Shown here: piece after piece, positions 31,047 to 57,755 of the stretch | How the letters are laid out: each line of letters begins with the position of its first letter | Position numbering within the stretch: the stretch's first letter is position 1 | Assembly: GCF_003050785.1 (NCBI RefSeq) | Contig: NZ_QAOH01000012.1 | Location: 1 to 64,000, forward strand | DNA from: Celeribacter persicus | GTDB taxonomy: Bacteria > Pseudomonadota > Alphaproteobacteria > Rhodobacterales > Rhodobacteraceae | Direction of reading: 5' to 3' | DNA: 64,000 nt | Notes under the pieces: generated by a model | Seen by the model: the letters and a program-made list of their open reading frames with translations, nothing else | The model's database searches: none | What the model was told of the DNA's origin: nothing | Translations under genes and position numbers: made by a program

Positions 31047-31060
31047 TTGATATATATCAA
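31047..31060. promoter_or_regulatory. Perfect FNR/FnrL box upstream of the nifJ operon
   Basis: TTGAT-ATAT-ATCAA is the exact FNR consensus TTGAT-N4-ATCAA, centred about 100 bases before the ATG at 31155. The position suits activation under low oxygen. The divergent TetR gene is about 210 bases away, so the nifJ operon is the more likely target. Confidence 0.82.
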
Positions 31061-32831: not shown

Positions 32832-35800
32832 CCGTGAAAACGCCCCCGTTCAGGCCACAATGGATGGCAACGCCGCCGTGGCCCATGTCGCGTATCGGGT
32901 GAATGAGGTTTGCTCGATCTACCCGATCACCCCTTCCTCGCCGATGGCGGAACTGGCCGATGACTGGACCGCGCAGGGTGTCAAAAACATCTGGGGCGAC
33001 ATTCCCGTCATTCAGGAAATGCAATCCGAGGGCGGTGCCGCAGGCACGGTGCACGGATCTTTGCAAGCGGGTGCGCTGACCACGACCTTCACCGCCTCGC
33101 AGGGCCTCATGCTCATGCTGCCCAATATGTTCAAGATCGCCGGCGAACTGACCCCCACCGTCTTCCATGTCGCGGCACGCTCTCTCGCGACCCATGCGCT
33201 GTCGATCTTCGGCGATCATGCCGACGTGATGGCCGCGCGCTCCACGGGCTTTGCCATGCTCGCCGCCTCTTCCGTGCAGGAAGCCCATGACATGGCGCTC
33301 ATCGCGCACGCATCGACCCTCAAGGCCCGCATTCCCTTCATCCATTTCTTCGACGGTTTCCGCACCAGCCATGAGGTCAACACGCTCTCGCTCATCCCCG
33401 ATAGCCAGATTCGGGCGATGATCGACGACGATCTGGTGCGCGCCCATCGCAAACGCGCACTGAGCCCCGAAAACCCGTTCATCCGCGGCACCGCCCAGAA
33501 CCCCGACGTGTTCTTCCAGTCGCGCGAAGCCGCCAACCCGTTCTACGCCGCAGTCCCCGACATCGTCGAAGAGGAGATGATGAAGCTGGGCCAGATGACC
33601 GGGCGCACATACCGGCCTTTCGATTACACCGGCGCACCGGATGCGACCCGCGTGGTCTTTGCCATGGGCTCGGGCACCGATGTGATCCGGGCAACCGTTG
33701 AGGATCTGGTGGCAAAAGGCGAGAAAATCGGCATGATCGCGGTGCGGCTCTACCGACCGTTCTCCGCGAAACACCTGTTCTCCATCCTGCCCGAGACGGT
33801 GGAGAAAATCGCCGTGCTCGACCGTTCGAAAGAGCCGGGCACCACGGGCGAACCGCTCTATCTCGACGTAGTCTCCGCGCTGGCGGAAGCCGTCGCAACC
33901 GGCAGCCGCGCCATCATGCCGCGCGTGATCGGCGGGCGCTATGGTCTCAGTTCCAAGGATTTCACCCCTACACAGGTCAAGGCGGTGTTCGACAACCTGT
34001 CGAAAGACAAACCGAAAACCAACTTTACCGTGGGCATCAACGATGATGTGTCCTTCACCTCTCTGAAGGTCGACACCTCTTATGATATCGAGAGAGACAA
34101 CGTGGTCCGCGCGGTGTTCTACGGCCTCGGTGCGGACGGCACGGTCGGCGCGAACAAGAACTCGGTCAAGATCATTGCCGCCGAACCGGACCACTTCGCC
34201 CAAGGGTATTTCGTCTACGACAGTCACAAATCCGGCGCCGTAACCGAAAGCCACCTGCGTTTCGGCCCGGAGCCCATCGAGGCCCCCTATCTGATTTCGT
34301 CCGCCAACTTTGTTGCCTGTCACCAGTTCCATTTCCTGATGAAAATGGACGTGCTGAAACTCGCCAAACCCGGCGCGACCTTCCTTTTGAATTCCCCTTA
34401 CGGCGCTGAGGCCACATGGGACCGCCTGCCGCGCTCCGTGCAACAGGCGATCATCGACAAGGGGCTGACATTCTACGTCATCGACGCCACTGCCGCCGCG
34501 CGCGAACTGGGGCTTGGCGGGCGCACCAATACGATCCTTCAGACCTGTTTCTTCGCCCTCTCCGGTGTGCTCCCCCGCGATGAGGCCATCGAGAAAATCA
34601 AGCACGCGATCGAGAAGACCTATTCGAAAAAAGGCCGCGAGGTGGTCGAGAAGAACTTTGCCGCCGTCGATGGCGCGCTGAAAGGCCTGCACGAAATCAA
34701 AGTGCCCACGACCCCCACCAGCGTGATCGAGCGCCCCTCCCTCGTCCCCCACGACGCACCCTCTTTCGTCCGCGACGTCACCGCCAAGATGATGGAGGGC
34801 ATCGGCGACGACATTCCCGTCTCCGCCCTGCCCGTCGATGGCACCTTCCCGTCGGGCACTGCCGCATGGGAAAAACGTAACGTCGCTGACGAGGTCCCCG
34901 TCTGGATTGCCGAGGATTGCATCCAGTGCGGCCAGTGTTCCTTTGTCTGCCCGCATTCCGTCATCCGCGCGAAATATTTCGATGCGGAGCTTTTGGAGGG
35001 CGCGCCCGAAGGGTTCAAGCACGCCCCGGTCAACGCCCGCGGCTACCCGGGCGCCGAATTCTCGCTCGAATTCTACCTTGAAGACTGCACCGGCTGCGGC
35101 CTCTGTGTCGAGGCCTGCCCGGCGATCTCCGAGGACGACCCGAGCCGCAAGGCGATCAACCTGCACCTCAAGGAAGACCTGCCGGAGCGTGAGCGCGAAA
35201 ACATCGCCTTCTTCGAGAGCCTGCCGGTCAATGACCGCTCCCGCGTCGATTTCGCCAATGTGCGCGGTGTTCAGTTCCTCGAACCGCTGTTCGAATTCCC
35301 TGGCGCCTGTGCGGGCTGTGGCGAGACGCCTTATGTCAAGCTCCTGAGCCAGCTCTTCGGCGACCGCCTCATGGTCGCCAATGCCACCGGCTGTTCCTCG
35401 ATCTATGGCGGCAACCTGCCGGTGACACCCTGGTCCAAAAACGCAGAGGGTCGCGGCCCCGCATGGGCCAACTCGCTGTTCGAGGACAACGCGGAATTCG
35501 GTCTCGGTTTCCGCCTTGCCGCCGACAAGCAAACCGCTCTGGCGCAGGACCTTTTGCGCAAACTCACCCCCGACGTGGGTCAGGAGCTTGTCGATGCGAT
35601 CCTCACCGCGCCACAGGTCCGTGAAAGCGAAATCCGGGCGCAGCGTGAGCGTGTGGGCCTCCTTAAAACCAAACTTCTCGCCCTGCCCCGCAATGAGGAT
35701 ATCGAACACCTGCTCTCGCTCGCCGACCATCTCGTCAAACGCGCCATCTGGCTCGTCGGTGGCGATGGCTGGGCCTATGACATCGGCTATGGCGGGCTCG

Positions 35801-36426
35801 ATCACGTCCTCGCCTCAGGGCGCAACGTCAACATCCTCGTGATGGACACGGAGGTCTATTCCAACACCGGCGGTCAGGCCTCCAAGGCAACACCTCTGGG
35901 CGCCATCGCCAAATTCGCCGCCGCCGGCAAACGCACCAACCGCAAGGACATGGCACTTCAGGCCATCGCTTACGGCAATGTCTACGTGGCTCAGGTCGCT
36001 TTGGGCGCGAACCCGCAACAGACGCTCCGCGCCTTCCGGGAGGCCGAGGCTTGGGACGGTCCTTCGATCATTCTGGCCTATTCGCATTGCATCGCGCACG
36101 GGATCGACATGCGCAAAGGTCTCAACCAACAGCAAAAGGCCGTGAAATCCGGTTATTGGCCGCTCCTGCGCTACGACCCGGCGCTGCATGGCACCGGCAC
36201 ACCGCCCTTCATGCTCGACAGCCCCCGCCCGACGCTGCCGTTCAAGGACTACGCTTACGGCGAGCTGCGCTACCGCCAGCTTACCCAGACCCGCCCCGAG
36301 GAAGCTGCCGAACTTCTGGAACTGGCGCAGAACGGTATTCGGGACAAATACCGCACCTATGAGGAATTCGCCGAGATGGAAAAGGGCCCCGACCCGAGCC
36401 GGGTGATGGGCACAGGGTCGTTTTGA
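32824..36426 (+). CDS. nifJ: Pyruvate:ferredoxin (flavodoxin) oxidoreductase
   Basis: A 1200-residue homodimeric-type PFOR that converts pyruvate and CoA to acetyl-CoA, CO2 and reduced ferredoxin or flavodoxin. It starts MLDRENAPVQATMDGNAAVAHVAYRVNEVCSIYPITPSSPMAE, the normal N-terminal TPP-domain start. Two ferredoxin-type motifs, CIQCGQCSFVCP and CTGCGLCVEACP, lie at about residue 700 and 755. The TPP-binding half has CAGCGETPYVKLLSQLFG, GCSSIYGGNLP, GGDGWAYDIGYGGLDH and the strand EVYSNTGGQASKATP. The reaction is oxygen-sensitive in most enzymes. It overlaps the GltD-like gene, and a terminator follows. Confidence 0.95.
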   Translation: MLDRENAPVQATMDGNAAVAHVAYRVNEVCSIYPITPSSPMAELADDWTAQGVKNIWGDIPVIQEMQSEGGAAGTVHGSLQAGALTTTFTASQGLMLMLPNMFKIAGELTPTVFHVAARSLATHALSIFGDHADVMAARSTGFAMLAASSVQEAHDMALIAHASTLKARIPFIHFFDGFRTSHEVNTLSLIPDSQIRAMIDDDLVRAHRKRALSPENPFIRGTAQNPDVFFQSREAANPFYAAVPDIVEEEMMKLGQMTGRTYRPFDYTGAPDATRVVFAMGSGTDVIRATVEDLVAKGEKIGMIAVRLYRPFSAKHLFSILPETVEKIAVLDRSKEPGTTGEPLYLDVVSALAEAVATGSRAIMPRVIGGRYGLSSKDFTPTQVKAVFDNLSKDKPKTNFTVGINDDVSFTSLKVDTSYDIERDNVVRAVFYGLGADGTVGANKNSVKIIAAEPDHFAQGYFVYDSHKSGAVTESHLRFGPEPIEAPYLISSANFVACHQFHFLMKMDVLKLAKPGATFLLNSPYGAEATWDRLPRSVQQAIIDKGLTFYVIDATAAARELGLGGRTNTILQTCFFALSGVLPRDEAIEKIKHAIEKTYSKKGREVVEKNFAAVDGALKGLHEIKVPTTPTSVIERPSLVPHDAPSFVRDVTAKMMEGIGDDIPVSALPVDGTFPSGTAAWEKRNVADEVPVWIAEDCIQCGQCSFVCPHSVIRAKYFDAELLEGAPEGFKHAPVNARGYPGAEFSLEFYLEDCTGCGLCVEACPAISEDDPSRKAINLHLKEDLPERERENIAFFESLPVNDRSRVDFANVRGVQFLEPLFEFPGACAGCGETPYVKLLSQLFGDRLMVANATGCSSIYGGNLPVTPWSKNAEGRGPAWANSLFEDNAEFGLGFRLAADKQTALAQDLLRKLTPDVGQELVDAILTAPQVRESEIRAQRERVGLLKTKLLALPRNEDIEHLLSLADHLVKRAIWLVGGDGWAYDIGYGGLDHVLASGRNVNILVMDTEVYSNTGGQASKATPLGAIAKFAAAGKRTNRKDMALQAIAYGNVYVAQVALGANPQQTLRAFREAEAWDGPSIILAYSHCIAHGIDMRKGLNQQQKAVKSGYWPLLRYDPALHGTGTPPFMLDSPRPTLPFKDYAYGELRYRQLTQTRPEEAAELLELAQNGIRDKYRTYEEFAEMEKGPDPSRVMGTGSF

Positions 36427-39826: not shown

Positions 39827-40378
39827 ATGAGCGACACTGGCACTTCCACACAAACAGGCCTCAAAACGGGGCCCATCGCCCCGCCGCTGAGGCGACTTGC
39901 GACGCGGCTTTTCGCAACGCTTCTCCTGTTCTGGCTGATGTTGAACGGCTCGATCTCCCCCGCGACCCTTTTTACTGGCGTGATCGTCGCGGGGGCGATC
40001 GCGGTCTTCTTCGCCCGCGATCTCTCTTTCCTATCAGGCTTCAACCTGACGCCCGAAGGGATCGGCGCGGCCTTCCTGTTCATCGGCTATTTCCTCAAGG
40101 AACTGGTAAAGGCCAATCTGGCGCTCGCCACCCTCGTGCTGACCCCCTCCCTGCCAATCTCCCCCGCCATCGTGAAGGTGCGCACAAGGCTCACCGATCC
40201 AGTCGGGCGGCTTTTGCTCGCGAATGCGATCACGCTGACGCCCGGCACGCTGACCTGCGAGATCAGGGGCGACCATCTTTACGTCCATTGGGTCACAGCC
40301 CGTGACACCGAGCTCGATGCCGCCACGGCGGAAATCGTCGCTGAGTTCGAGCGCTATCTGGAGAAGATGTATGGCTGA
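39827..40378 (+). CDS. mnhE: Mrp/Mbx-type subunit E (MnhE-like)
   Basis: A 183-residue membrane protein from MSDTGTSTQTGLK (CGGAGG upstream). The MnhE core is LFATLLLFWLMLNGSISPATLFTGVIVAGAIAVFFARD, and the C-terminal cytosolic half contains NAITLTPGTLTCEIRGDHLYVHWVTARDTELDAAT. It opens a 13-gene operon whose order matches archaeal mbx (ABCDFGHH'MJKLN), where this subunit is A. In Mrp it is part of a Na+/H+ antiporter scaffold. Overlaps mnhF by 8 bases. Confidence 0.88.
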   Translation: MSDTGTSTQTGLKTGPIAPPLRRLATRLFATLLLFWLMLNGSISPATLFTGVIVAGAIAVFFARDLSFLSGFNLTPEGIGAAFLFIGYFLKELVKANLALATLVLTPSLPISPAIVKVRTRLTDPVGRLLLANAITLTPGTLTCEIRGDHLYVHWVTARDTELDAATAEIVAEFERYLEKMYG

Positions 40379-40634
40379 TCTGCTTTTCACCCTCGCGGCC
40401 CTCGTCGCCGCTCTCGCTTTCGCCCTCGCCGCATGGCGGTTCGTCAAGGGCCCCCGCGCCACCGACCGGGTCGTCGCGTTCGACGCGCTCACGATCATTT
40501 CCGTCACCGGCATCGTGCTTGCCGCTCTGATCACGGGACGGTCGATCTATCTCGACGTGGCGCTGATTTACGCGCTCCTTTCCTTCCTTGGCGTGATCGT
40601 CGCCGCCCGCTATCTCGAAGGAGGCGAAGAATGA
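40371..40634 (+). CDS. mnhF: Mrp/Mbx-type subunit F (MnhF-like)
   Basis: An 87-residue protein with three membrane helices: LLFTLAALVAALAFALAAWRFVKGPRATDRVVAFDALTIISVTGIVLAALI ... YLDVALIYALLSFLGVIVAARYL. The GPRATDRVVAFD turn is the family hallmark. It corresponds to MbxB. The start ATG lies inside the mnhE stop region. Confidence 0.88.
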   Translation: MADLLFTLAALVAALAFALAAWRFVKGPRATDRVVAFDALTIISVTGIVLAALITGRSIYLDVALIYALLSFLGVIVAARYLEGGEE

Positions 40635-40969
40635 TCCTCGAAGGTGTTCTCGACACGCTCGGCGCGCTCTCCCTTCTGGGCGGCACCGTGTTTCTCGCTC
40701 TGGGTGGGCTTGGCCTCGTGCGCATGCCCGACGTGTACAACCGCATTCAGGCTGGGACCAAGGCGACCACTCTGGGCACTCTTCTGGTGCTTCTGGGCGC
40801 GGCTTTGATCGTGCCGTCGTGGTCGATCAAACTGCTGTTGATCATGCTGTTTCTCATGTTCACCAACCCGCTGAGTTCTCAGGTTCTGGCCCGCGCCGCC
40901 CACCGCGCCGGTGTGCCCCCCGTGGCCTCCAAGGATTGCCTCGCGGAAGATGCGGAGGATCTGGCATGA
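40631..40969 (+). CDS. mnhG: Mrp/Mbx-type subunit G (MnhG-like)
   Basis: A 112-residue protein with three membrane helices. The signature is LGGTVFLALGGLGLVRMPDVYNRIQAGTKATTLGTLLVLLGAALI, followed by a short hydrophilic tail. It corresponds to MbxC. Overlaps its neighbours by 4 bases on both sides, which indicates tight translational coupling. Confidence 0.88.
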   Translation: MILEGVLDTLGALSLLGGTVFLALGGLGLVRMPDVYNRIQAGTKATTLGTLLVLLGAALIVPSWSIKLLLIMLFLMFTNPLSSQVLARAAHRAGVPPVASKDCLAEDAEDLA

Positions 40970-41217
40970 CGCTTCTCCTCTTCATGGCCGCCCTTCTGGC
41001 CGTCGCCACCCTCGGTGCCGCGCTGATCGCGCTTTTCACCAGCTCAACCGTGGTCGCGGTGTTGTCCGCCGGGCTGGTGTCCCTCTTCGCCTCTGTGATG
41101 TTCCTGCTTCTGGCCGCGCCGGATGTGGCAATGACCGAAGCTGCCATCGGCTCGGGCCTCACCACCTTCCTCTTCTTCTTCGTCCTCGGGCGCATCCGCA
41201 GGGAGGGCACGAAATGA
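40966..41217 (+). CDS. DUF4040 subunit (MbxD-like) of the Mrp/Mbx complex
   Basis: An 83-residue protein with two or three membrane helices: TLLLFMAALLAVATLGAALIALFTSSTVVAVLSAGLVSLFASVMFLLLAAPDVAMTEAAIGSGL. The LLAAPDVAMTEAAIGSGL segment is the DUF4040 motif with its conserved Asp and Glu. In Mrp proteins this is the C-terminal piece of MnhA; in Mbx operons it is the free subunit D, as here. Confidence 0.85.
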   Translation: MTLLLFMAALLAVATLGAALIALFTSSTVVAVLSAGLVSLFASVMFLLLAAPDVAMTEAAIGSGLTTFLFFFVLGRIRREGTK

Positions 41218-41927
41218 ACTTTACCACCCGCAAAGCCATTCCCCTCGTTCTCCTGCTGCTTCTGGGCTCGGTCTTCTATGCCCTTTTCGCCGGTTACACG
41301 CCGGACGAGACCCTGAACCGCACAGCCAGCTATTACGCCAGCCAGACGGTGCAGGAAACCGGCGCGCAGAACGTTGTGACGGCGATCATCGTCACCTATC
41401 GCGGGCTCGATACGCTGGGCGAGGTCACGGTTCTGTTTCTGACCGCCGCCATCGTCGGGCTGGTTCTGGCGCATTCGAAAGCGCCGAAAAGCCGCTCCGG
41501 GTCCGGCTTTTTGCCCTCGGGCGAATTGCTCACCACCGGTACGCGCATGCTGGTCCCGGTGATCCTGCTCTTTGGTGCTTATGTCTTCCTGAACGGCCAT
41601 CTGACCCCCGGCGGCGGTTTTCAGGGCGGCGCGATCGTGGCCTCGGCCATACTGCTGATGCTCCTGTCCGACCCGGCCCAGCGTTTCTCGCACCGGCTGA
41701 TCTCACGGATCGAAAGCTCCGCAGGCCTCACCTATGTGATCATAGGTCTTCTCGGCATGCTCTTTGCGGGCGGCTTTCTGGACAACCGTATCCTTCCGCT
41801 CGGCAGCTTTGGCTCGATCCTTTCGGCCGGGGTCATCCCGCTGATCTATGCGCTGATCGGCCTCAAGGTCGGTGCGGAGTTTTCCTCCATCCTGACCTCG
41901 CTCGAAGAAACGGAGGACGCGCAATGA
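41214..41927 (+). CDS. mnhB: MnhB-like subunit (MbxE/F-type) of the Mrp/Mbx complex
   Basis: A 237-residue membrane protein. The N-terminal 90 residues look like the MbhE/MbxE domain (VVTAIIVTYRGLDTLGEVTVLFLTAAIVGLVLAH), and the C-terminal 140 residues are MnhB (MLVPVILLFGAYVFLNGHLTPGGGFQGGAIVASAILLMLL). The HLTPGGGFQGG loop is the MnhB signature. The two modules are separate in some archaeal operons, so this is a fused form. Overlaps neighbours by 4 bases. Confidence 0.85.
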   Translation: MNFTTRKAIPLVLLLLLGSVFYALFAGYTPDETLNRTASYYASQTVQETGAQNVVTAIIVTYRGLDTLGEVTVLFLTAAIVGLVLAHSKAPKSRSGSGFLPSGELLTTGTRMLVPVILLFGAYVFLNGHLTPGGGFQGGAIVASAILLMLLSDPAQRFSHRLISRIESSAGLTYVIIGLLGMLFAGGFLDNRILPLGSFGSILSAGVIPLIYALIGLKVGAEFSSILTSLEETEDAQ

Positions 41928-42283
41928 GCCTCGTTCAGCTTTCCCTTGCAACCGGATTTTTGCTCATCCTTCTCGGGCTTTACGGCGCTTTGACGAACCG
42001 TGACATCATCCGCATGATCGTCAGCTTCACCATCGCCGACACCGGCGTCAACGTGGTGTTGGTGGCGGTCGGCTATCTGCCGGGACGCGAGGCCCCGATC
42101 CTCGACACCATCCCTGTCGCGGAGGCCGCAAGCCGCATCACCGACCCGGTGCCGCAGGCATTGGTCCTCACCGCCATCGTCATCGGCCTCGGCGTCACCG
42201 CCTTGATGCTCGCCTACGCCTACCGGCTGTTTCGCGCCCGCGGCAGCCTCGACATCTCTGAGTTTACGGAGCTGAAATGGTAA
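41924..42283 (+). CDS. mnhC: MnhC/NuoK-like subunit
   Basis: A 119-residue protein with three membrane helices of the NuoK/MnhC type: LATGFLLILLGLYGALTNRDIIRMIVSFTIADTGVNVVLVAVGYL ... PVPQALVLTAIVIGLGVTALMLAYAYRLF. It corresponds to MbxG and helps shape the ion path between the antiporter modules and the peripheral arm. Confidence 0.88.
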   Translation: MSLVQLSLATGFLLILLGLYGALTNRDIIRMIVSFTIADTGVNVVLVAVGYLPGREAPILDTIPVAEAASRITDPVPQALVLTAIVIGLGVTALMLAYAYRLFRARGSLDISEFTELKW

Positions 42284-45200
42284 GCCCTCTTCTGATCCTC
42301 GCGGCTGGCCTCGGTGCGGCCTTTCTCCTCGGGCTTCTGCGCGACAGTTCCGAACGCATGGCCTTTTACCTGACCGTGATCGCTCTGGGTTTCATGAGCT
42401 TTGTCGGCCTGTCCTGGACCGTCTCTCTGGCCTTGGGAGAGGCGCAACCCGTGGAGATTTATACCGCGGGCGCCCGTCCGCCCTTCGCGATCAACCTGCG
42501 CATGGGCCTGCCGGAAGCGGCGCTGACTTCCGTCGTCACGCTCACCGGGCTTCTCTCCGCCGTCTTCATGCGCCGCGATCTCATGCGCCTCGGACGGCGG
42601 GCCATGGCGGTCCTGATGGTGCTGATCATGGCGCTTTCGGGCCTGATCATGACGCGGGACCTGTTCAACCTTTTCGTCTTCATCGAACTGATCGTCATCG
42701 CCTCCGCCGGTCTTGTGCTCCTGTCGCAGGACACGCGCGCACTGGGGGCCGGGTTCAAATACCTGATCGTATCTCAGGTGATTTCGATCCTGCTGCTCGT
42801 CGGCGTGATCTTTACCTATCACGCCAACGGTTCGCTCAATATCGACGACATCGCCGCCACACCTATGGGGTTCACCGGTGCGTCTCTGGCGATCTTCCTC
42901 GTGCTTATCGCGCTTGTGCTCGAACTCAAGCCCTTCCCCGCCAATGGCTGGGCGCTCGACATCTACGAGGCCGCACACCCCGGTTTCTCGGCACTGTTCT
43001 CCGCCGCCTCGGGGTCCGCCGCGCTCTTTGCCGTGCTCAAGCTTTTCGAGGCCGCCGGTCCCGACTGGGCCCCTCTGGCCACCGGCATTGGTCTTGTGAC
43101 CTTCGTCGGCGCGAATATTCTCGCCCTAGCCCAAGATCATGATCGCCGCCTTCTGGGCTATTCCTCCGTCGGGCAAATCGGGCTTGTGCTCATGGTCGTG
43201 GGCTATGGCTATGACTGGGATGCGGGGCTTTATTATGTCGCGGGCGGGCTGCTGATCTCGCATGCCATCGCCAAGGCCGGGCTGTTCTGGCTTTCGGGTC
43301 TGGTCAAGGCACGCAAGCTCTCCGATTGGGCCGCGCTCCGGCAGAACCCGGCTCTGGTCGTGGCCTTCGCCACCTTCATCGCCATGCTCACCGGCTTGCC
43401 ACCCTTCCCGGCCTTCTACGCCAAATGGACGCTGGTGCACGCTATGGCGGATTATGGCGATTATCCGCTGATCGCGATCTTCCTGATTGCCGCGCTGATC
43501 GAGGCCGCAGTCCTGTTCCGCTGGTTCGGCATGGCGATCAAACGCGAGGCAATACGTCCGCTCGCCTATAATCTCAGCCATGAGACCGTCGTTCTGATTG
43601 CCATGACGGCAGGCTGGGCGTTGAGCTTTGTCTGGGGCGCCATCTCCGGGCTCGACAATCTCGTGACTCTTGTGCCCCTACTCTTCGCGCTTTTGTTCCT
43701 GCCGCTCGACATCCTGCCCGCGCGGATCAAAAACGTGATCGCCATCGCCGGGCTGGTGCTTTGGTTCTTTCTCTCGAAAGACGGGCTCGATCCACTGCGG
43801 CTGATCTTCCTGACGATCATGGTTCTGGGCGGCGCGCTGCTTTTGCTCGCCTCCTTCCATGCCAAAGGCCGTCGCATGGGCTTTTATACGCCTGCGATGC
43901 TGATGTTTGCCGGCATGGCGCTTTTGGTTACGGCAGAGACGAGTTTTCAGTTCTTCGCGGCTTGGGAATTCCTCACCGTCGGCTCGTATTTCCTGATCCT
44001 GCGCGGCCATGACAGCGAACCGCATGCGCTCTCTTACATCACCTTCTCCCTGGGCGGTGCCTTTGCCCTTCTTGCAGGCTTTGCCGTCGCCTCCGAAGGG
44101 CAATTCGTCATCCCGCTTGCAAACCTCTCCGAAGTTGCGCCCGAGATTGCGCCCTATGTCTTTGTCCTTCTGGCCATCGGGTTCCTGACGAAAACCGCCA
44201 TCATGGGGCTTCATATCTGGCTGCCGGGGGCACATGCCGAGGCCGAGACCGATGTCTCTCCCATGGTCTCCGGTATCTTGCTCAAAGCCGGGCTTTTCGG
44301 GCTTTTCGTCCTCTTGATGGAAATGGGCCGCCAAGAGCTTTACGGCGTCGATCTCACCGTGTTGCTCGTCTGGCTCGGGGCGATCTCGGCCTTCATCGGC
44401 GCGGTTCTTGCGGCCTTTCAGGAAGACGCCAAACGCCTTCTGGCCTATAGCTCGATCTCCCAAATGGGCTATGCGGTCTTTGGCCTTGCACTGATGAACC
44501 ATCTTGGCTGGCTCCTGGCCATGATGTTCGCGATCAACCACTTCGTCTATAAATCCATGCTCTTCCTCGCCGTCGGCGGCGTCAAGGAACGTACTCATAC
44601 CAAGCTCATGTACAAGATGGGCGGGCTCATCACGCTCATGCCCTACAGTTTCGTCTCCGTCCTCGTCGGCATCATCGCCATGTCGGGCGTGCCGCCGCTG
44701 TCGGGCTTTGGTGGGCGCTGGATTTTCTACAATGCGATCATGTCGACCGATCTGCGCCTGCCGATGATCCTCATCTTCATGGCGGGTCCCGTGGGCTTTC
44801 TCTATCTCTTCCGACTGATCCATACGATCTTCCTCGGTCAGCCAAAAGACGAACTGCGCAAGGTCAAGGAAGCGCCGTTCTGGATCATCCTGCCGCAGAT
44901 GATTTTCGTGGCCTTCCTGATCGCCTTCGCCGCCCTGCCCGGCATGGTGCTACAGCGGGTCGATGGCTATATCGGCACGCTCTTTGGCGACCGGCCGCTC
45001 GTCTGGACGGGCCGCATCATCGACAGCCAATACGGCACATGGAACCCGGTGGCGATCTGGGGTGTGATCATCGTGGTCTTTGTGACCGTGCTTCTGCTCC
45101 TCGTCTGGATGAACCACAACGCCCAGCACGTAAAACAGTTCAACATCGTCTTTTCGGCGGAGCGCCCGTTCAAACCGCAGACCACGCATTTCGCATGGAA

Positions 45201-45402
45201 CTTCTTTGCGCCCTACCGCAAGGCCATGGGGTTCCTTGAGATGCCCGTGTCCACGAGCTTTTGGACCGGCGTGTCGAACGCACTTCATGGCACCGCCGAG
45301 TTCAGTCGCAAATTCTACACCGGCAATGGCCAGACCTATGCGGTGCAACTCATGCTCTTTGTCGTCGCCGTCTACCTGATCAGCATGGGAGCCTCGTCAT
45401 GA
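42277..45402 (+). CDS. Fused double antiporter-like subunit (MnhD/NuoN-MnhA/NuoL-type), 1041 residues
   Basis: Two complete proton/sodium-pumping modules in one reading frame. Module 1 (about residues 1-490) has MTRDLFNLFVFIELIVIASAGLVLLSQ, the LKPFPANGWALDIYEAAHPGFSALFSA core and the HDRRLLGYSSVGQIGLVLM segment. Module 2 (about 510-1041) has AWEFLTVGSYFLILRGHDSEPHAL, the IWLPGAHAEAETDVSPMVSGILLKAGLFG core and DAKRLLAYSSISQMGYAVFGL. Each has the key Lys/Glu transport residues within these cores. In archaeal mbx operons these are two genes, H and H'. No stop or frameshift separates them here. Confidence 0.88.
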   Translation: MVSPLLILAAGLGAAFLLGLLRDSSERMAFYLTVIALGFMSFVGLSWTVSLALGEAQPVEIYTAGARPPFAINLRMGLPEAALTSVVTLTGLLSAVFMRRDLMRLGRRAMAVLMVLIMALSGLIMTRDLFNLFVFIELIVIASAGLVLLSQDTRALGAGFKYLIVSQVISILLLVGVIFTYHANGSLNIDDIAATPMGFTGASLAIFLVLIALVLELKPFPANGWALDIYEAAHPGFSALFSAASGSAALFAVLKLFEAAGPDWAPLATGIGLVTFVGANILALAQDHDRRLLGYSSVGQIGLVLMVVGYGYDWDAGLYYVAGGLLISHAIAKAGLFWLSGLVKARKLSDWAALRQNPALVVAFATFIAMLTGLPPFPAFYAKWTLVHAMADYGDYPLIAIFLIAALIEAAVLFRWFGMAIKREAIRPLAYNLSHETVVLIAMTAGWALSFVWGAISGLDNLVTLVPLLFALLFLPLDILPARIKNVIAIAGLVLWFFLSKDGLDPLRLIFLTIMVLGGALLLLASFHAKGRRMGFYTPAMLMFAGMALLVTAETSFQFFAAWEFLTVGSYFLILRGHDSEPHALSYITFSLGGAFALLAGFAVASEGQFVIPLANLSEVAPEIAPYVFVLLAIGFLTKTAIMGLHIWLPGAHAEAETDVSPMVSGILLKAGLFGLFVLLMEMGRQELYGVDLTVLLVWLGAISAFIGAVLAAFQEDAKRLLAYSSISQMGYAVFGLALMNHLGWLLAMMFAINHFVYKSMLFLAVGGVKERTHTKLMYKMGGLITLMPYSFVSVLVGIIAMSGVPPLSGFGGRWIFYNAIMSTDLRLPMILIFMAGPVGFLYLFRLIHTIFLGQPKDELRKVKEAPFWIILPQMIFVAFLIAFAALPGMVLQRVDGYIGTLFGDRPLVWTGRIIDSQYGTWNPVAIWGVIIVVFVTVLLLLVWMNHNAQHVKQFNIVFSAERPFKPQTTHFAWNFFAPYRKAMGFLEMPVSTSFWTGVSNALHGTAEFSRKFYTGNGQTYAVQLMLFVVAVYLISMGASS

Positions 45403-46316
45403 CCGCGTTTCCGAATTTCGAATGGGTCCAGATCGCCTATGCCCTGCTGACGCTGTTCATCGTGATCAACTACGGCATGGTGATGACCGCCGTGGTGCGT
45501 AAAATCGGTGCGCGGGTCGGTGGGCGTTACGGCATCCCGGTCTGGCAGAACTATGTTGACCTTTTGAAAAACATCGCGCTGCGGTCCAAGATCTCCCATG
45601 GCGTGATGTATTACCTCGGGCCGGTGTTCCGGCTGACGGGCGGCGTGGGTCTTTTGATGTTCGTGCCGACGATCTACGGCTCCGAATGGCATCAGAATTT
45701 CTCCTATGCGGGCGATCTGATCCTTGCTTTGTACTTCGTGTTCTTCGGCACGCTGGGCATGGCCTTGGGCGCGGGCGAGAGCGGGCATCCGCATAGCGCC
45801 ATCGGTGTGTCGCGGGGCCTCGCGCAGGTGACCATGGCGGAACTGCCGCTGGCCTTGGGCGTCTATGCCCTGTCGTTGCAATACGGCACGCTCGACATCA
45901 CCAAAATCGTCGCCGCCCAGCAGGGCTCCATCTTCAACTGGACGCTCTTCACCAACCCGCTTGCGACCGTGGCCGCGATGGTGGCTTTCGTCGGCACGAT
46001 GATGCGCTCGCCTTTCGATGTCGCCATGGCGCCGCAGGAAATCCCCATCGGCCCGCCGACCGAGTATCACTCGTCCTATCTGGCGCTGATGCAGACCAAC
46101 CGCGTGCTCTTCCCGGTCGCCAAAACGGTGATCTACATGAACCTGTTCTTCGGCGGCGCCACAAGCTGGGCCGAGTTCGCGATCAAGGTGTTCTGCCTCT
46201 ACATGATTTCCGTCGTGATCGGCGTCGTGCATCCCCGCTTTAGGGTCGAGCAGAGCATCCGTTTCTTCCTCAAATGGGGGCTGCCTCTCGGCGTCCTCGC
46301 CATCCTGACCGTGTGA
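45399..46316 (+). CDS. NuoH/HyfC-like membrane-arm subunit (MbxM-like)
   Basis: A 305-residue protein with about eight membrane helices. It starts at MTAFPNFEWVQIAYALLTLFIVINYGMV (ATG overlaps the previous stop). Family segments: IPVWQNYVDLLKNIALRSKISHGVMYYLGPVFRL, the HSAIGVSRGLAQVTMAELPLALG helix and RSPFDVAMAPQEIPIGPPTEYHSSYLALM, which in complex I and hydrogenases forms the junction loop between the membrane and peripheral arms. It anchors the NuoB- and NuoD-like subunits. Confidence 0.88.
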   Translation: MTAFPNFEWVQIAYALLTLFIVINYGMVMTAVVRKIGARVGGRYGIPVWQNYVDLLKNIALRSKISHGVMYYLGPVFRLTGGVGLLMFVPTIYGSEWHQNFSYAGDLILALYFVFFGTLGMALGAGESGHPHSAIGVSRGLAQVTMAELPLALGVYALSLQYGTLDITKIVAAQQGSIFNWTLFTNPLATVAAMVAFVGTMMRSPFDVAMAPQEIPIGPPTEYHSSYLALMQTNRVLFPVAKTVIYMNLFFGGATSWAEFAIKVFCLYMISVVIGVVHPRFRVEQSIRFFLKWGLPLGVLAILTV

Positions 46317-46326
46317 GGGTGACACC

Positions 46327-47016
46327 ATGAAAGACGTTGACGACAAGTTCCGCAAGACCGACACCGAAGTGCCACTCCGCGAAGAGTTGCGCCCACGCAA
46401 GGTGACCACACCCGACGGGCAGGAAATCGACATCGACCCGCTGCGCGATTATTTCTGCGAGGCCAAGCCCAAGGTGCACCCCAAGGCCTATTCCAAGATT
46501 GTCGAGGATTTCTACAACTGGGCGCGGGCGAATTCGCTCTGGATTCTGGGCTTTGGCACCGGCTGCGGCGCGATCGAGATGCGCCCGCTGATGACGCCGC
46601 GCTTCGATGCCTATCGCTATGGCATCCAATGGCGGCCCACGCCCCGGCAAGCGAACCTTTTGGTGATCTCCGGCTACCTGTCGGTCAAGACCCTCAAACG
46701 CGCCATTCGCGCCTATGAGCAGATGCCGCAGCCGAAATACGTCATGGGGCTTGGCTCCTGCACGATCAACGGCGGCATGTATTGGGACAGCTACAATACG
46801 ATCAAGCGGCTCGACGATTACCTGCCCGTGGATATGTATGTCGCCGGCTGTATGCCCCGCCCCGAAGCGCTCTTGCACGGGTTCATGGAACTCAAACGCG
46901 TGATCCGCGAAGGCAAGGGCGAAGGCGCGAACAAATACGCCGAGAATTTCGACCAGTACAAAGCCAACCAAAAGGCGGTGATCAAGGACTGGGACATGCC
47001 GGATTACAATTGGTGA
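46327..47016 (+). CDS. NuoB-like iron-sulfur subunit (MbxJ-like) with an unusual cysteine set
   Basis: A 229-residue peripheral subunit carrying the proximal [4Fe-4S] cluster equivalent to N2. Cysteines lie in GFGTGCGAIE (C80), GLGSCT (C145) and AGCMPRPEALL (C175). Complex I NuoB has two adjacent cysteines at the first place (CC) and hydrogenases have CxxC; here only one is seen. C44 in DYFCEAKP could be the fourth ligand, but this is not certain. GAGGGTGA precedes the ATG. Confidence 0.85.
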   Translation: MKDVDDKFRKTDTEVPLREELRPRKVTTPDGQEIDIDPLRDYFCEAKPKVHPKAYSKIVEDFYNWARANSLWILGFGTGCGAIEMRPLMTPRFDAYRYGIQWRPTPRQANLLVISGYLSVKTLKRAIRAYEQMPQPKYVMGLGSCTINGGMYWDSYNTIKRLDDYLPVDMYVAGCMPRPEALLHGFMELKRVIREGKGEGANKYAENFDQYKANQKAVIKDWDMPDYNW

Positions 47017-47021
47017 GCACG

Positions 47022-47564
47022 ATGAGAGAAATTCTGTACCGCCTCAAGGACCGCTATCATCTCGGCACGCCGACATTCCAGCGGACCGACCTGTGCTTTG
47101 TCACCGTGCGCCGCGATGAGATTCGCGCGATCCTCACGGAACTGCGCGACATGGAGGGGTTCACGCATCTGACTTTCCTCACTGCCGTCGACTGGATCGA
47201 GGAACAACTTTTTCAACTCACCTATATGGTGAACAACCGCGAAGCCAATCTTTCGCTCGGCCTGCGCGTCCTGCTCGACCGCGAGGACGCCACAGGGGAT
47301 ACGATCCACGATCTCTGGCCCACCGCCGCCACCTATCAGCGCGAGTTGCGCGAAATGTTCGGCATCAAATTCCCCGGCAGCCCCCGTGTGGACGAAGAGT
47401 TCATCTTGGAGGGCTGGACCGACCTGCCCCCCTACCGGCGCGATTTCGATACTTTGGCCTATTCGCAGCAGACCTATAACGACCGTCCGGGGCGCGTCAC
47501 CCATGATCCGAAAACGCATATGCAAAAGACGCTGTATCCGAGCTATCCGAAAGGAGCCAAATGA
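47022..47564 (+). CDS. NuoC-like 30-kDa subunit (MbxK-like)
   Basis: A 180-residue peripheral subunit. The family stretch is MEGFTHLTFLTAVDWIEEQLFQLTYMVNNREANLSLGLRVLLDRED, then the docking segment AATYQRELREMFGIKFPGSPRVDEEFILEGWTDLPPYRRDFD. An alternative GTG start at 47013 overlaps the nuoB-like stop and cannot be excluded. It connects the NuoB- and NuoD-like subunits. Confidence 0.82.
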   Translation: MREILYRLKDRYHLGTPTFQRTDLCFVTVRRDEIRAILTELRDMEGFTHLTFLTAVDWIEEQLFQLTYMVNNREANLSLGLRVLLDREDATGDTIHDLWPTAATYQRELREMFGIKFPGSPRVDEEFILEGWTDLPPYRRDFDTLAYSQQTYNDRPGRVTHDPKTHMQKTLYPSYPKGAK

Positions 47565-48742
47565 TGTTCTCCTTCAAACCCGATCGCTCGCAATATCCCG
47601 CCCCCGGACCCGATGGCAAACTCGAAGTCGATCTGGAAACCGGCAAATACCTGAAACTCTGGCATGGCCCGAACCACCCCGGCATCACCGGCAATATGTC
47701 GGTCGAACTCACCGTCTGTGGCGATGAGGTCGTCGAGGGCAAGACCCATGTCGGCTATCTGCACCGGGGTTTCGAGAAACTCATGGAGCGTCGCACCTTC
47801 ATTCAGGTCTTCCCGATTGTGTGCCGCGTCTGTGTGCCGGAGCCGGATTTCAATGAATATTGCTACGCCGCCGCCGTCGAGGAACTGGCGGGGATCGAAG
47901 TTCCCGAAATGGCCAGTTGGATCAGAACGCTCATTTTGGAAATGGGCCGGTTCAACAGCTACATGATGGCCATGGGCGGCATCTCCGGCGCGCTTGGCCT
48001 CGGCGTGGTCGGCCAGTGGATGACCTATGTGCGCGACATCATGCTGGACCGTTTCGAGGAACTCACGGGCGCGCGCATCTATCACATGTTCATCCTGCCC
48101 GGCGGCGTGCGCGCGCATCTGCCCGAGGGGTTCGAAGCGCGGATGGAAGAGGTTCTGCAAACCGCCGAGCGCTATCTGGCGGATGCCGAAAATCTGATGT
48201 TCAAAAGCTCGGTGTTCAAAACCCGCACACAGGGCGTGGGCGTGATCGACCCCGCTTTGTTCGAGCGTTTCGGCGTGACAGGCCCCAATGCCCGCGCCGG
48301 CGGCGTGGCGAAAGACGTGCGCAAGGACAGCCCCTATCTGGTCTATGACCAGCTTGAGTTCACCGTCCACACGGAAGAGGCCTCAGACATCTACGCCCGC
48401 ACCCTCGTGCGTTACAAAGACCTGCTTGAGACGATCCAGCTTATCCGACAGATCCTTCGTAAAATGCCGAAAGAAGGCGAGGTCATGACGAACCTCCCGA
48501 ATGTGCTGCATTGGAAAATCCCGCGCGGCGAGACCTATATCAAGGGCGAAAGCTCGCGCGGCGAATATGGTTATTATCTGGTGACGGACGGCACGGGCTA
48601 CCCCCGCCGCGTCAATGTCCGGGGGCCGAGCTACACCCATGCCATGGCTCTGCTCGAACATCTGATCCCCGGCACCAATATTTCCGACGTCGCAGCCCTC
48701 ATGGTGTCGCTGCACACCTATCCGCCCGAGATCGAGAGGTAA
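47561..48742 (+). CDS. NuoD/hydrogenase large-subunit-like protein (MbxL-like), not a [NiFe] enzyme
   Basis: A 393-residue large subunit. The N-terminal CxxC of [NiFe] hydrogenases is kept as CRVC (C88, C91), with C101 nearby, but the C-terminal DPCxxC is absent: the tail reads ISDVAALMVSLHTYPPEIER. The complex I quinone motif GPxHPxxHG reads GPNHPGITG (36-44), lacking the second His. Thus both hydrogen chemistry and standard quinone binding look excluded. The start has AAAGGAGC, and the ATG overlaps the nuoC-like stop. Confidence 0.87.
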   Translation: MMFSFKPDRSQYPAPGPDGKLEVDLETGKYLKLWHGPNHPGITGNMSVELTVCGDEVVEGKTHVGYLHRGFEKLMERRTFIQVFPIVCRVCVPEPDFNEYCYAAAVEELAGIEVPEMASWIRTLILEMGRFNSYMMAMGGISGALGLGVVGQWMTYVRDIMLDRFEELTGARIYHMFILPGGVRAHLPEGFEARMEEVLQTAERYLADAENLMFKSSVFKTRTQGVGVIDPALFERFGVTGPNARAGGVAKDVRKDSPYLVYDQLEFTVHTEEASDIYARTLVRYKDLLETIQLIRQILRKMPKEGEVMTNLPNVLHWKIPRGETYIKGESSRGEYGYYLVTDGTGYPRRVNVRGPSYTHAMALLEHLIPGTNISDVAALMVSLHTYPPEIER

Positions 48743-48746
48743 GCCC

Positions 48747-50543
48747 ATGTCCCTTCGTGATGTTCTCTCCCCTTTCACCGCGTGGAAACATGTCATCGAC
48801 GATCCGGTGACCATCAAGGACCCGTTCAATCGTCCGGGCGCCGACCGTTATCGCGGCTTTCACCAGAACGACATGGACAAATGCATCGGCTGCGGCTCCT
48901 GCGAAGAAATTTGTCAGAACGCCGCCATCGACATGGTGCCGGTCGAGGGACAACACGCGGGTCCCGGCGATAGTGGCCTCAGGCCGATGATCGACTATGG
49001 TCGCTGCTGCTGGTGCGCCCTGTGCGTGGATGTCTGCATGACCGGCTCGCTCACCATGTCCAACGAATACACCTGGGTCGACAGCGACCCGGACGCGTTC
49101 CGATTCGTGCCCGGTGCAGACGGAAAGTCATGGGACCTCGATGTCAAAGGCTATCAGCGCGAAGATGTACGCCGCCTGACCGGCACCACCCGCGCGCCGA
49201 TGGGCGAAATGCCCGCTGAGGAGCGGATCGGCAATTTTTGCGAGATTGTCGACGGGTTTACCCCCGAACAGGCCGTGATCGAAGCCGACCGCTGCGTCGA
49301 ATGCGGGCTGTGTGTGGCCACCTGCCCAGCGCATATGGACATCCCGGACTATATCGCGAAGGTGCGCGACGGCGATTTCGAGGGTGGCCTGCGATTGCTT
49401 TACGAGACGAACCCTTTCTCTCAGGCCTGTGGCCGCATCTGTACCCACAAATGCGAAACCACTTGCGCCGCGATGCATGAAGGCGATACGATTGCGATCC
49501 GCTGGCTCAAACGCGCGATCACCGATAGCGTGCCGCGCGAGCGCTATTTCGACCTGATCCGGAAACCCGACGTGCCGGAAACCGGGCAGAAAATCGCGAT
49601 CATCGGCGCGGGGCCTGCGGGGCTGACCACGGCCTATGATCTGGCGCGTGCGGGGCATAAAGTCGTGGTCTTCGAAGCCTTGGATAAACCCGGAGGCATG
49701 ATGCGCTATGGCATCCCGGAATACCGCCTGCCCTATGACGTTCTGGATCACGAGATTTCCGTAATTGAGGCCATGGGTGTCGAGATTCGCTGCAACATGC
49801 GGGTTGGAAAGGAAATTTCCATAGACCAACTGAAGACAGCCTATGACGCCGTGGTGCTCTCCATCGGGCTGCACCAAGGCCGCTCGACCCGCGTTCCGGG
49901 GTCGGAGAAAGCCGAGGCTGCGATTGACCTGTTGCGCCGGATCACGGCAGGCGAAGAAGTCCCGGTGCCGGAACAGGTCGCGGTGATCGGCGGTGGCAAC
50001 GTGGCGATGGACATCGCGCGCTCCATGGCCCGGCTGCAAAAGATCATATACGGCACGGTGGGCGTCACCGTCACCGCTTTGGAAGAACTCGACCGTTTCC
50101 TCGCCGACCGCGAGGAAATCGAAGAGGCACAGGAAGAAGGTTGCGTGATCTACCCGGCCCGCGGGCCACAGGAGATCACCGTTGCGGGCGACACGGTCAC
50201 GGGGCTCAGAACCTGGAAGGTCAAAGCGATTTTTGATGAAGAAGGCCGGTTTGCCCCGAAATATGACGAGACGGACGAGATGATCCACCCCGCTGGCATG
50301 GTGGTCGAGGCCATCGGGCAAATGTCCGACATCTCGCTTTTGGGCGCGGATCTGACAGAACAACTCGAATGGAACCGCGGTCGGATCATGATCGACAGCG
50401 AAGGCCAGACCTCGGAGCCGTGGCTCTGGGCTGCTGGCGATGTAACATCGGGCCCCGATGTCATTCATGCGGTCGCCGACGGTCACCGCGTCGCGCGGTC
50501 GGTCGGCAAAATGCTGGCGGCAAAACGGGAGAAATTGCAATGA
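48747..50543 (+). CDS. NuoI-like ferredoxin fused to GltD-like NAD(P)H oxidoreductase
   Basis: A 598-residue fusion. The first 100 residues are a NuoI/MbxN-type two-cluster ferredoxin (CIGCGSCEEIC, C46-C56; CCWCALCVDVC, C87-C97). A GltD-type Cys domain follows (CVECGLCVATCP, then CGRICTHKCETTC), then an FAD motif IIGAGPAGL (287-292 core) and an NAD(P) motif VIGGGNVAMD (415-421). The C-terminal WLWAAGDVTSG closes the FAD site. The likely role is electron entry or exit between NAD(P)H and the membrane complex. I know of no standard complex I or Mbh subunit of this make-up. Confidence 0.87.
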   Translation: MSLRDVLSPFTAWKHVIDDPVTIKDPFNRPGADRYRGFHQNDMDKCIGCGSCEEICQNAAIDMVPVEGQHAGPGDSGLRPMIDYGRCCWCALCVDVCMTGSLTMSNEYTWVDSDPDAFRFVPGADGKSWDLDVKGYQREDVRRLTGTTRAPMGEMPAEERIGNFCEIVDGFTPEQAVIEADRCVECGLCVATCPAHMDIPDYIAKVRDGDFEGGLRLLYETNPFSQACGRICTHKCETTCAAMHEGDTIAIRWLKRAITDSVPRERYFDLIRKPDVPETGQKIAIIGAGPAGLTTAYDLARAGHKVVVFEALDKPGGMMRYGIPEYRLPYDVLDHEISVIEAMGVEIRCNMRVGKEISIDQLKTAYDAVVLSIGLHQGRSTRVPGSEKAEAAIDLLRRITAGEEVPVPEQVAVIGGGNVAMDIARSMARLQKIIYGTVGVTVTALEELDRFLADREEIEEAQEEGCVIYPARGPQEITVAGDTVTGLRTWKVKAIFDEEGRFAPKYDETDEMIHPAGMVVEAIGQMSDISLLGADLTEQLEWNRGRIMIDSEGQTSEPWLWAAGDVTSGPDVIHAVADGHRVARSVGKMLAAKREKLQ

Positions 50544-51034
50544 GCGAAGCAAACAAGGCCAAGCTGACCGGGCTGACCACGGTCAGGGAGATCATGGACA
50601 CGGCCACGTCCTTCGAGGTGGTGGCGCGCGATTTTTATCAATCGCTCGCCCCGAAAGTGTCTAAGAACATCAGATGGTTGGTGGACGAACTTGCGGAAGA
50701 AGAACAGGGCCACGTCGACCTGTTCACCAAGCTCGCCAACGACCCGAAAGTCTCCGAGGTGATGGCGGAGAAAATCCAGCGCCCGGTGGCGGATGGCAAA
50801 TTTTCCGACTGCGTGCAGGTACCCGATCTGGGCGAGAACCCGGACGATCAAGAGGTATTGCAATACGCCCTGATGCGGGAGACCGCCGCGATGGAGCAAT
50901 ACACGGAACTGGCCGAAACCGCGCCGGAAGGCCCCCTGAAAGAGGCCTTCACCTTCCTCGCCAATGAGGAGGCCGAGCACAAGGAAGAGCTTGAGAAAAT
51001 CTATTACGAGATCGTGCATTCGGGCGGGGTGTGA
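50540..51034 (+). CDS. Ferritin-like/rubrerythrin-type diiron protein
   Basis: A 165-residue four-helix protein. The diiron ligands are apparent in helix pairs: FEVVARDFY, EEEQGHVDLF, ETAAMEQYTELAE and NEEAEHKEELEKIYY, each with ExxH or E. There is no rubredoxin-like C-terminal CxxC. Such proteins remove peroxide or oxygen. It overlaps the end of the fused ferredoxin-GltD gene by 4 bases and so is part of the Mbx-like operon, probably protecting the oxygen-sensitive clusters. Confidence 0.85.
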   Translation: MSEANKAKLTGLTTVREIMDTATSFEVVARDFYQSLAPKVSKNIRWLVDELAEEEQGHVDLFTKLANDPKVSEVMAEKIQRPVADGKFSDCVQVPDLGENPDDQEVLQYALMRETAAMEQYTELAETAPEGPLKEAFTFLANEEAEHKEELEKIYYEIVHSGGV

Positions 51035-52276: not shown

Positions 52277-52328
52277 AACTCTTCCTCGGTGAGACAACGG
52301 GCGCGGGAAGAGCCCGCGCCCAGATAGA

Positions 52329-52781
52329 TCAGTACATTTTGTAAGGCAGGAATTTACCGTCGAGCACAATCTTGACGCGGTCGCCTTTCGGGTCCTCGGT
52401 GCGGGAGATATCCATGGTGAAGTCGATGGCGGACATGATGCCGTCGCCGAATTCCTCTTCGATCAGCGCTTTCATCGTGGTGCCGTAGACGTTCACCACC
52501 TCATAGAGGCGATAGATCAGCGGATCGGTCGGCACGGCGGTCGGCAGCGAACCACGGTAAGGCACGGTCATCAGAAGGGCGACTTCCTCGTCCGAGAAAT
52601 TGATCCCCATGGCGTTGTCGACCTTGGCGATCTGGTCTTTCGTAAGCGAGATCTGCCCCATCAGCGCGGCGGTAGTCCATTCCTTGGATTGCCCGACCGC
52701 CTTGGCGACGTCGGCCCATTTGATGTCGTTGAACACCTTGTGGGCGATGATTTTCTCGGTGAGTTCTGCACGGGTGGTCAT
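52329..52781 (-). CDS. cynS: Cyanate hydratase (cyanase)
   Basis: A 150-residue enzyme that turns cyanate and bicarbonate into ammonia and CO2, acting as a decamer. The catalytic residues equivalent to E. coli R96, E99 and S122 are present as R91, E94 (IYRLYEVVNVYG) and S117 (GIMSAIDF). The N-terminal helix-turn-helix-like domain and the C-terminal DFTMDISRTEDPKGDRVKIVLDGKFLPYKMY are typical. It lies downstream of the rhodanese gene by 45 bases. Confidence 0.96.
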   Translation of the reverse strand: MTTRAELTEKIIAHKVFNDIKWADVAKAVGQSKEWTTAALMGQISLTKDQIAKVDNAMGINFSDEEVALLMTVPYRGSLPTAVPTDPLIYRLYEVVNVYGTTMKALIEEEFGDGIMSAIDFTMDISRTEDPKGDRVKIVLDGKFLPYKMY

Positions 52782-52826
52782 CTGTATGTCTCCGTAAGTT
52801 CAGATGTTTCATTTGGGTATTTGAGA

Positions 52827-53684: not shown

Positions 53685-53802
53685 GCGGCGGCTCCCTGTT
53701 GTTGGTTCCGTTTGACGTTGTGTGACCTGTGTTTTGATTATTGGGGGGAGAGACGCGCCCTCCCCCATGGGGAATTTTGTGCGGAAAAATCCAGACGGAA
53801 AC

Positions 53803-54912: not shown

Positions 54913-54938
54913 CTCATCTCTCCAGAGGTTGGGTTTCG

Positions 54939-54981: not shown

Positions 54982-54991
54982 GGAAAGGGTG

Positions 54992-55549: not shown

Positions 55550-55600
55550 GGGAATTCCTCCGTTGCGTCTGGTGGGTTAAAAGTCAGGGAGCGCAGGGCT

Positions 55601-57717: not shown

Positions 57718-57755
57718 GTCAGGTCCCTGTTGGTGTTCGGTTGGTCTTGTTCGGA

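Follow-up and report, generated by a model that had tools for sequence, protein, structure and literature searches.

Complexes of the MBX/MBS type are discussed as intermediates between hydrogenases and complex I, and the structural work on them is archaeal. Throughout the superfamily, ion movement is driven by a reaction at a cavity near the proximal cluster. In MBS of Pyrococcus furiosus this cluster has three cysteine ligands, of which Cys25 is not one, and its open iron is the proposed catalyst; lysine K250 of MbsH is part of a charged axis described for the same complex (PMC7684303; this and the other papers given by PMC number are drawn on in excerpt). We describe here an operon at positions 39827-51034 of a 64,000-nucleotide stretch of the alphaproteobacterium Celeribacter persicus (the whole of this stretch being the window) that is, from its sequence, a bacterial operon for an MBX/MBS-type complex. 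What is new is the predicted combination, on this known type of machine, of a fused pump with a lost lysine and a NuoI-GltD fusion protein.

The operon comprises 13 intact genes with no internal stops, spaced -8 to +10 bases apart:

39827..40378, + strand: MnhE-like protein, MbxA position (PF01899, 132.7 bits)
40371..40634, + strand: MrpF-like protein, MbxB position (PF04066, 63.2 bits)
40631..40969, + strand: MnhG-like protein, MbxC position (PF03334, 89.7 bits)
40966..41217, + strand: MbhD/DUF4040 protein, MbxD position (PF13244, 57.8 bits)
41214..41927, + strand: MbhE+MnhB fusion, MbxF position (PF04039 and PF20501; 6u8y_E 163 bits, next chain 63)
41924..42283, + strand: MnhC/NuoK-like protein, MbxG position (PF00420, 85.3 bits)
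42277..45402, + strand: fused antiporter-like H-H' protein, 1041 aa (two Proton_antipo_M stretches; 6u8y_X 182 bits, 6u8y_H 158 bits)
45399..46316, + strand: NuoH-like membrane anchor, MbxM (6u8y_M 129 bits, next 55)
46327..47016, + strand: NuoB-like protein, MbxJ (6u8y_J 212 bits, next 140)
47013..47564, + strand: NuoC-like protein, MbxK (6u8y_K 63.6 bits, next 45.1)
47561..48742, + strand: NuoD-like large subunit, MbxL (6u8y_L 304 bits)
48747..50543, + strand: NuoI-GltD fusion, MbxN plus an FAD/NAD(P) module (PRK13984, 843.7 bits, next family 389.5)
50540..51034, + strand: rubrerythrin-like (ferritin-fold) protein (PF02915, 56.7 bits)

The first-pass annotation of this DNA had read the thirteen genes as E-F-G-DUF4040-B-C-(D-D')-NuoH-B-C-D-(NuoI+GltD)-diiron protein in the order of archaeal mbx operons, and Pfam and NCBIfam searches bear out the subunits and their order. 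By sequence they make up a membrane module resembling Na+/H+ antiporters, two fused pump domains, an anchor in the membrane and a cytosolic arm. Two details needed adjustment: the 'B' gene does hold MnhB, but as part of an MbhE+MnhB fusion like that in 6u8y_E, and of the several 4-base overlaps claimed there are eight, two other overlaps being of 7 and 8 bases. NuoC could start at GTG 47013, which gives a 4-base overlap, or at ATG 47022. The gene order corresponds to the subunit set and order A-B-C-D-F-G-H-H'-M-J-K-L-N of P. furiosus MBX and is colinear with mbxABCDFGHH'MJKLN, with H and H' fused and N fused to GltD; positions A-D and G are assigned by Pfam only. A genome scan with the NuoI-GltD protein as query gave at least 548 stretches at E 1e-3, some of them possibly encoding other GltD proteins, and the analysis covered the 80 best loci. 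All 12 core genes are present in 57 of these; because the order is kept in all 57 it is not a product of chance, and the remaining 23 loci have a partial gene set in a consistent order.

Comparison with PDB sequences covered seven of the 13 genes, the remaining six being assigned by Pfam/NCBIfam, and for all seven the best match within the complex I superfamily is P. furiosus MBX (6u8y). NuoD scores 304 bits with MBX, 221 with Thermus complex I and 130 with Mbh; NuoB scores 212 with MBX, 140 with the best complex-I/NDH chain and 100 with Mbh; and NuoH scores 129 with MBX, followed by formate hydrogenlyase (55), Mbh (52) and complex I (50). The two halves of the fused pump give 182 and 158 bits with MBX and 130 with Mbh, and the NuoI part of NuoI-GltD gives 82 with MBX and 43 with the next chain, from complex I; searched at full length, NuoI-GltD has GltD-type proteins as its highest-scoring PDB chains. 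The earlier proposal of a hydrogenase-related, ion-pumping complex that is neither complex I, Mbh nor a simple Mrp system is thus upheld, with no grouping of the subunits with complex I or hydrogenase.

Using the pair spacing of the NiFe motifs (two CxxC in the large subunit) in PMC6085437, we find the first position of each pair to be cysteine in 64 and 41 of 76 NuoD rows (Cys and Tyr in the window) and the second to be Glu or Asp in all 76, so the search for functional NiFe ligands ended with the four-cysteine site in 0/76 rows. A NiFe hydrogenase of the Mbh type, or a plain Mrp antiporter, mistaken for something else by annotation would account for the Mrp-type and Mbh-type subunits that are shared, but we regard this as almost certainly wrong: the NiFe cysteines are missing, Mbh scores lie well under those of MBX, and the redox genes of NuoB, C, D, H and I type exclude a plain Mrp antiporter.

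A quinone-reactive enzyme is the other identity to be weighed, in which GltD would take the place of NuoEFG in an alternative complex I acting as an NAD(P)H (or ferredoxin):quinone oxidoreductase. Domain searches found no NuoEFG NADH module among the 13 genes of the operon, the Q and P modules are homologous to those of complex I, and NuoD passes the NCBIfam equivalog PRK06075 (390.9 against a cut-off of 360). The residues expected of such an enzyme are nevertheless replaced. The window NuoD has Thr and Val in place of Thermus H38 and Y87, as do MBS and the 29 of 75 NuoD relatives that this alignment took in, and Thr occupies the H38 position in 75 of 76 rows; the tandem cysteines of complex I NuoB are not present in an alignment of 70 NuoB rows (the window and the 69 of 80 loci yielding NuoB); and complex I scores lower in all seven genes searched. 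We therefore reject respiratory complex I, and consider its GltD-fed variant very unlikely. Another contig of the same genome encodes a further NuoD, of the complex I type, and this NuoD of the host's own complex I retains His and Tyr at the H38/Y87 positions; since Celeribacter carries ordinary complex I too, both machines could be compared within one cell.

The proximal cluster site, in turn, is predicted to have three cysteines, as in MBS. NuoB residues C80, C145 and C175 are invariant in the 70 rows, and position 77, which corresponds to MBS Cys25, is Gly in 68, Ala in one and Cys in one.

The NuoI-GltD protein is one departure from the archaeal design. Its nearest family is PRK13984 (NF010590), by a match that spans residues 2-593 of 598 and falls under the equivalog line, the curated cut-off being 946. 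Across 75 rows (the window and 74 of the 80 loci) nine cysteines in the NuoI part and eight in the GltD part are each conserved in at least 74, the glycines of the FAD motif are mostly kept (71-75 rows) and GGGNVA-D is kept. Because NuoI is here fused to a GltD-type FAD/NAD(P) module, the conserved cysteines would mark out a chain running from the flavin to the cavity at the membrane. Both K255 and R327 are invariant; they align with K170 and R239 of StnC, whose lysine at this position ligates a cluster and whose flavin is non-bifurcating (PMC10482914). An AlphaFold model (mean pLDDT 80.4, with residues 1-24 below 50) matches the structures of NfnL, StnC and GltD. The fusion raises the question of how an NAD(P)H module is wired into an MBS-type cluster chain.

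Leu-Glu follows the nucleotide motif of NuoI-GltD, with E446 in all 75 rows, where StnC, the small subunit of the genome's own GOGAT and the neighbouring PRK12771 protein have Arg-Arg. At window positions 11553-14195 there is also PreA of an NAD-dependent dihydropyrimidine dehydrogenase (721 bits, cut-off 335) together with a GltD-like partner, PreT by position, which retains Arg-Arg and so serves as a control against equating Arg-Arg with NADPH alone. Since this partner of an NAD-dependent PreA keeps Arg-Arg, Leu-Glu leans only weakly towards a preference for NADH. Near NuoI-GltD, 39 of the 80 loci have a dihydroorotate-dehydrogenase-like gene (PRK07565; for example L069, 11813-12796), a type of neighbour that recalls dihydropyrimidine dehydrogenase, in which a GltD part is joined to such a part.

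Another departure lies in the pump. H and H' form a single protein in all 59 of the 80 loci that give a full-length protein; the 21 others were not scored for fusion, most being cut by contig ends, with L008 and L041 having no extracted protein and L078 being unfused. With the window this makes 60 fused proteins, and in the H half the position of MbsH K250 is Thr in 40, Ser in 18 (S247 in the window) and Ala in two, a result that is the same when the proteins are aligned directly with MbsH. E137 is retained in 60/60 and H329 in 55/60, the central lysine in none, and an invariant lysine lies eight residues beyond the lost position. The H' half has E564, K670 and H755 each in 60/60, so that the Glu-Lys-His axis is complete in this half and not in both pump subunits. 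Lysine loss thus accompanies H-H' fusion in this sample, the comparison being based on one unfused example, L078, a gammaproteobacterial metagenome-assembled genome with separate H and H' genes, a retained H lysine and a CTGC motif at the Cys25 site of NuoB. L078 may stand as an intermediate between MBX of the archaeal type and the fused form; its NuoI-GltD locus (94-17371) has PFOR-like and PRK12771-like genes downstream (PFOR, pyruvate:ferredoxin oxidoreductase). Loss of the H-half lysine suggests a possibly lower ion-to-electron ratio, and as a natural substitution beside a sister domain intact in 60/60 it makes the number of ions per antiporter-like domain testable.

As to function, the reading we prefer is a sulfane-sulfur reductase, linked to ferredoxin and/or NAD(H), that would pump Na+/H+; we give it an even chance of being correct. 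Reduced ferredoxin, in Celeribacter from a nearby PFOR, would enter at the NuoI clusters; NAD(P)(H) would exchange electrons at the GltD flavin, with NADH added, NAD+ reduced, or both; and the open iron of the proximal cluster would hand electrons on to a sulfane-sulfur acceptor (polysulfide, persulfide or disulfide), as has been proposed for P. furiosus MBS. Under anoxia this reaction would drive H+/Na+ translocation. Because the site appears to be built as in MBS, sulfane sulfur is the best-supported acceptor, and because NADH alone gives little potential drop to polysulfide, ferredoxin is favoured as the main donor. In Thermotoga maritima, mbxA is up 4.36-fold with S0 (PMC9431562).

The PFOR in question lies upstream of the operon, with three features of context:

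31047..31060, + strand: FNR-type box TTGATATATATCAA 5' of the PFOR pair, not part of the complex (sole exact match in the window, 0.17 expected)
31155..32831, + strand: PRK12771 GltD-like iron-sulfur flavoprotein (NF009410, 748 bits)
32824..36426, + strand: single-chain pyruvate:ferredoxin (flavodoxin) oxidoreductase (TIGR02176, 1753.4 bits)

The PRK12771 and PFOR genes end 3.4 kb upstream of the operon, and three Celeribacter relatives have them on the same strand as the complex, at a distance of 2.7-5.1 kb; the four Celeribacter genomes being close kin, this proximity counts as one observation. PFOR is over the cut-off in six of 15 alphaproteobacterial carriers (the window's genome and five of 13 other carriers, genome G003 being without) and in none of 98 operon-less sampled family genomes (Fisher p 2e-6, or 1e-3 when Celeribacter is counted once). 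We consider it the likely source of reduced ferredoxin. Such a PFOR occurs in one of 100 sampled family genomes, namely the window's own, and the PRK12771-PFOR pair is also seen in Rhodobacter aestuarii (L086) and in an alphaproteobacterial metagenome-assembled genome (L090). The FNR-type box, about 95 bases before the pair, is weak as an exact match alone, since 16 of 100 shuffles have one, and its case therefore rests on its place and on its conservation in three relatives (exact in L083 and L085, one mismatch in L084). Allowing one mismatch, a scan of the whole window gave the PFOR box and a match within the NuoH gene at 45456 (1.53 expected) and no box 5' of the complex operon. In L083 there is a one-mismatch site about 600 bases before the first gene of the complex.

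The proximity of PFOR also fits the main rival, an ion-pumping ferredoxin:NAD+ oxidoreductase replacing Rnf, in which electrons would run from PFOR through ferredoxin and NuoI to the GltD flavin and NAD+ and the energy would be stored as a Na+/H+ gradient. The NuoI-GltD fusion suits such an enzyme, P. furiosus Mbx was formerly described as a ferredoxin:NADP+ oxidoreductase (PMC6349859), and RnfC is not over the cut-off in the window's genome or in three named Celeribacter genomes, and is so in only two of the 14 alphaproteobacterial genomes searched. But RnfC is also over the cut-off in nine of 21 carriers, and transfer from NuoI to GltD could bypass the proximal cluster, leaving the pump coupling and the conserved open cluster and cavity unexplained. 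We regard this rival as possible, if somewhat unlikely.

Reverse operation, with the ion gradient driving electrons from NADH (or from sulfide via the open cluster) to ferredoxin for fixation reactions, would suit the purple sulfur bacteria among the carriers and a GltD flavin able to accept NAD(P)H electrons, and the network neighbours of the Mrp-Mbx complex of the Riftia symbiont are common with the reductive tricarboxylic acid cycle (PMC11636981). Set against it, nifH is over the cut-off in only seven of 21 carriers and gives no such hit in any of the four Celeribacter genomes searched, by which we also reject a general role in nitrogen fixation, and the neighbour in Celeribacter is an FNR-boxed PFOR, usually a maker of reduced ferredoxin. 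Running in this direction is, in our estimation, distinctly improbable.

Sulfane-sulfur reduction, the preferred reading, itself has several points that weigh against it. P. furiosus MBS has no GltD, which places the role of this module outside the MBS precedent, and the aerobic-type complex I of the genome would make anaerobic sulfur reduction a side activity. The single-chain PFOR is missing in nine of the 15 alphaproteobacterial carriers, and the Leu-Glu argument for NADH is a weak one, given the Arg-Arg of the PreTA pair. The operon has no linked sulfur gene, the adjoining rhodanese sitting in a block that relatives lack, and SoxB is rejected as evidence for sulfur, being present in 13 of 15 alphaproteobacterial carriers and 64 of 98 operon-less sampled family genomes, with no enrichment (Fisher p 0.14). 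The open-licence literature yielded no experiment on a NuoI-GltD-fused MBX, subscription papers on Thermotoga and archaeal MBX lying outside that coverage.

The block just mentioned (51047-59659) contains ferredoxin-reductase-like, cyanase, rhodanese, OsmC-like, acyl-CoA-dehydrogenase-like and ABC-transporter genes. It is not beside the operon in the three Celeribacter relatives, where a homologue of the gene at 59763 comes next after the rubrerythrin-like gene, and it reflects either a recent insertion in the window's lineage or loss in the relatives; we accordingly set aside its cyanase, rhodanese and transporter genes as functional evidence. Among the 80 loci the commonest flanking clusters are the dihydroorotate-dehydrogenase-like genes (39), a CBS protein (18) and a Crp/FNR-type regulator (16). 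Homologues of the window's rubrerythrin-like gene occur in 20 loci; eight loci have rubrerythrin-like genes of a second cluster, two of the eight being shared with the first. The window also has a bacterioferritin gene (24823-25308; TIGR00754, 189.8 bits).

The first-pass annotation had presented the system as alphaproteobacterial and poorly described. The former does not hold, as Bacteroidota and several other phyla have the operon and T. maritima has the same NuoI-GltD family; the latter holds less than was implied, a 'putative Mrp-Mbx complex' having been named already in the Riftia symbiont (PMC11636981), while no paper on Mbx in Rhodobacteraceae or on pyruvate ferredoxin in Celeribacter was found in the open-licence literature. 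Hosts among the best 80 loci include Bacteroidota, Chlorobiota, Chromatiaceae and other gammaproteobacteria, Neomarinimicrobiota, Cloacimonadota, Spirochaetota, Myxococcota, Aminicenantes and Delongbacteria. Full-length NuoI-GltD is rare in the window's family (two of 198 genomes) and was found in five of 200 genomes of the phylum, the window's included in both counts; the closest named proteins among the matches listed are from three Celeribacter (90-92% identity), and a plasmid collection gave no match at E 1e-100. In a NuoD tree of 80 rows, in which P. furiosus MBS and L078 are on long branches and their placement is not relied on, the alphaproteobacterial rows fall inside a proteobacterial clade, two label changes being needed, with G003 apart. 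From this nesting we infer that Rhodobacterales probably gained the operon by horizontal transfer. A broader proposal, which we offer tentatively and think rather unlikely to hold as a whole, is that these operons form a distinct MBX branch with a re-geared fused pump, in which NADH and ferredoxin would be oxidised jointly via NuoI-GltD and sulfane sulfur reduced at the open cluster, a two-donor, sulfur-respiring cousin of complex I that dispersed through anaerobes and reached marine Rhodobacterales.

Five described systems bear comparison with the Celeribacter operon. P. furiosus MBX/MBS (PDB 6u8y; PMC7684303) is alike in its colinear subunits, its three-cysteine proximal cluster and its lack of quinone or complete NiFe ligands; it differs in that Celeribacter has H-H' in one protein, GltD on NuoI and a rubrerythrin-like gene after, with Cys25 replaced by Gly and the central lysine of the H half by Ser. 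Of 14 control genomes, T. maritima alone has a match to PRK13984 (NuoI-GltD) at E 1e-150 or better, and it alone matches the MbxH' family at E 1e-80 or better; each match passes its cut-off. Its NuoI-GltD and MbxH' presumably lie in its mbx operon, and the full-length MbxH' family match only suggests that its H and H' are separate. The putative Mrp-Mbx of the Riftia symbiont, likened here by description only, is of the Mbx type, comes from a gammaproteobacterium and has been proposed to reduce S0, and the excerpted description does not mention a GltD fusion (PMC11636981). StnC of the Stn transhydrogenase (PMC10482914; PDB 8oh5) likewise joins a GltD module to a subunit of the complex I type and has Lys and Arg where NuoI-GltD has K255 and R327, but unlike NuoI-GltD it is soluble and NADPH-dependent (Arg-Arg), its fusion is to a NuoG-like part, and the partner that it feeds is bifurcating. 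Respiratory complex I, finally, has homologous NuoB, C, D, H and I and antiporter-like subunits, whereas the Celeribacter operon is without NuoEFG, the NuoB tandem cysteines and the quinone His/Tyr, and has Mrp-type small subunits and DUF4040.

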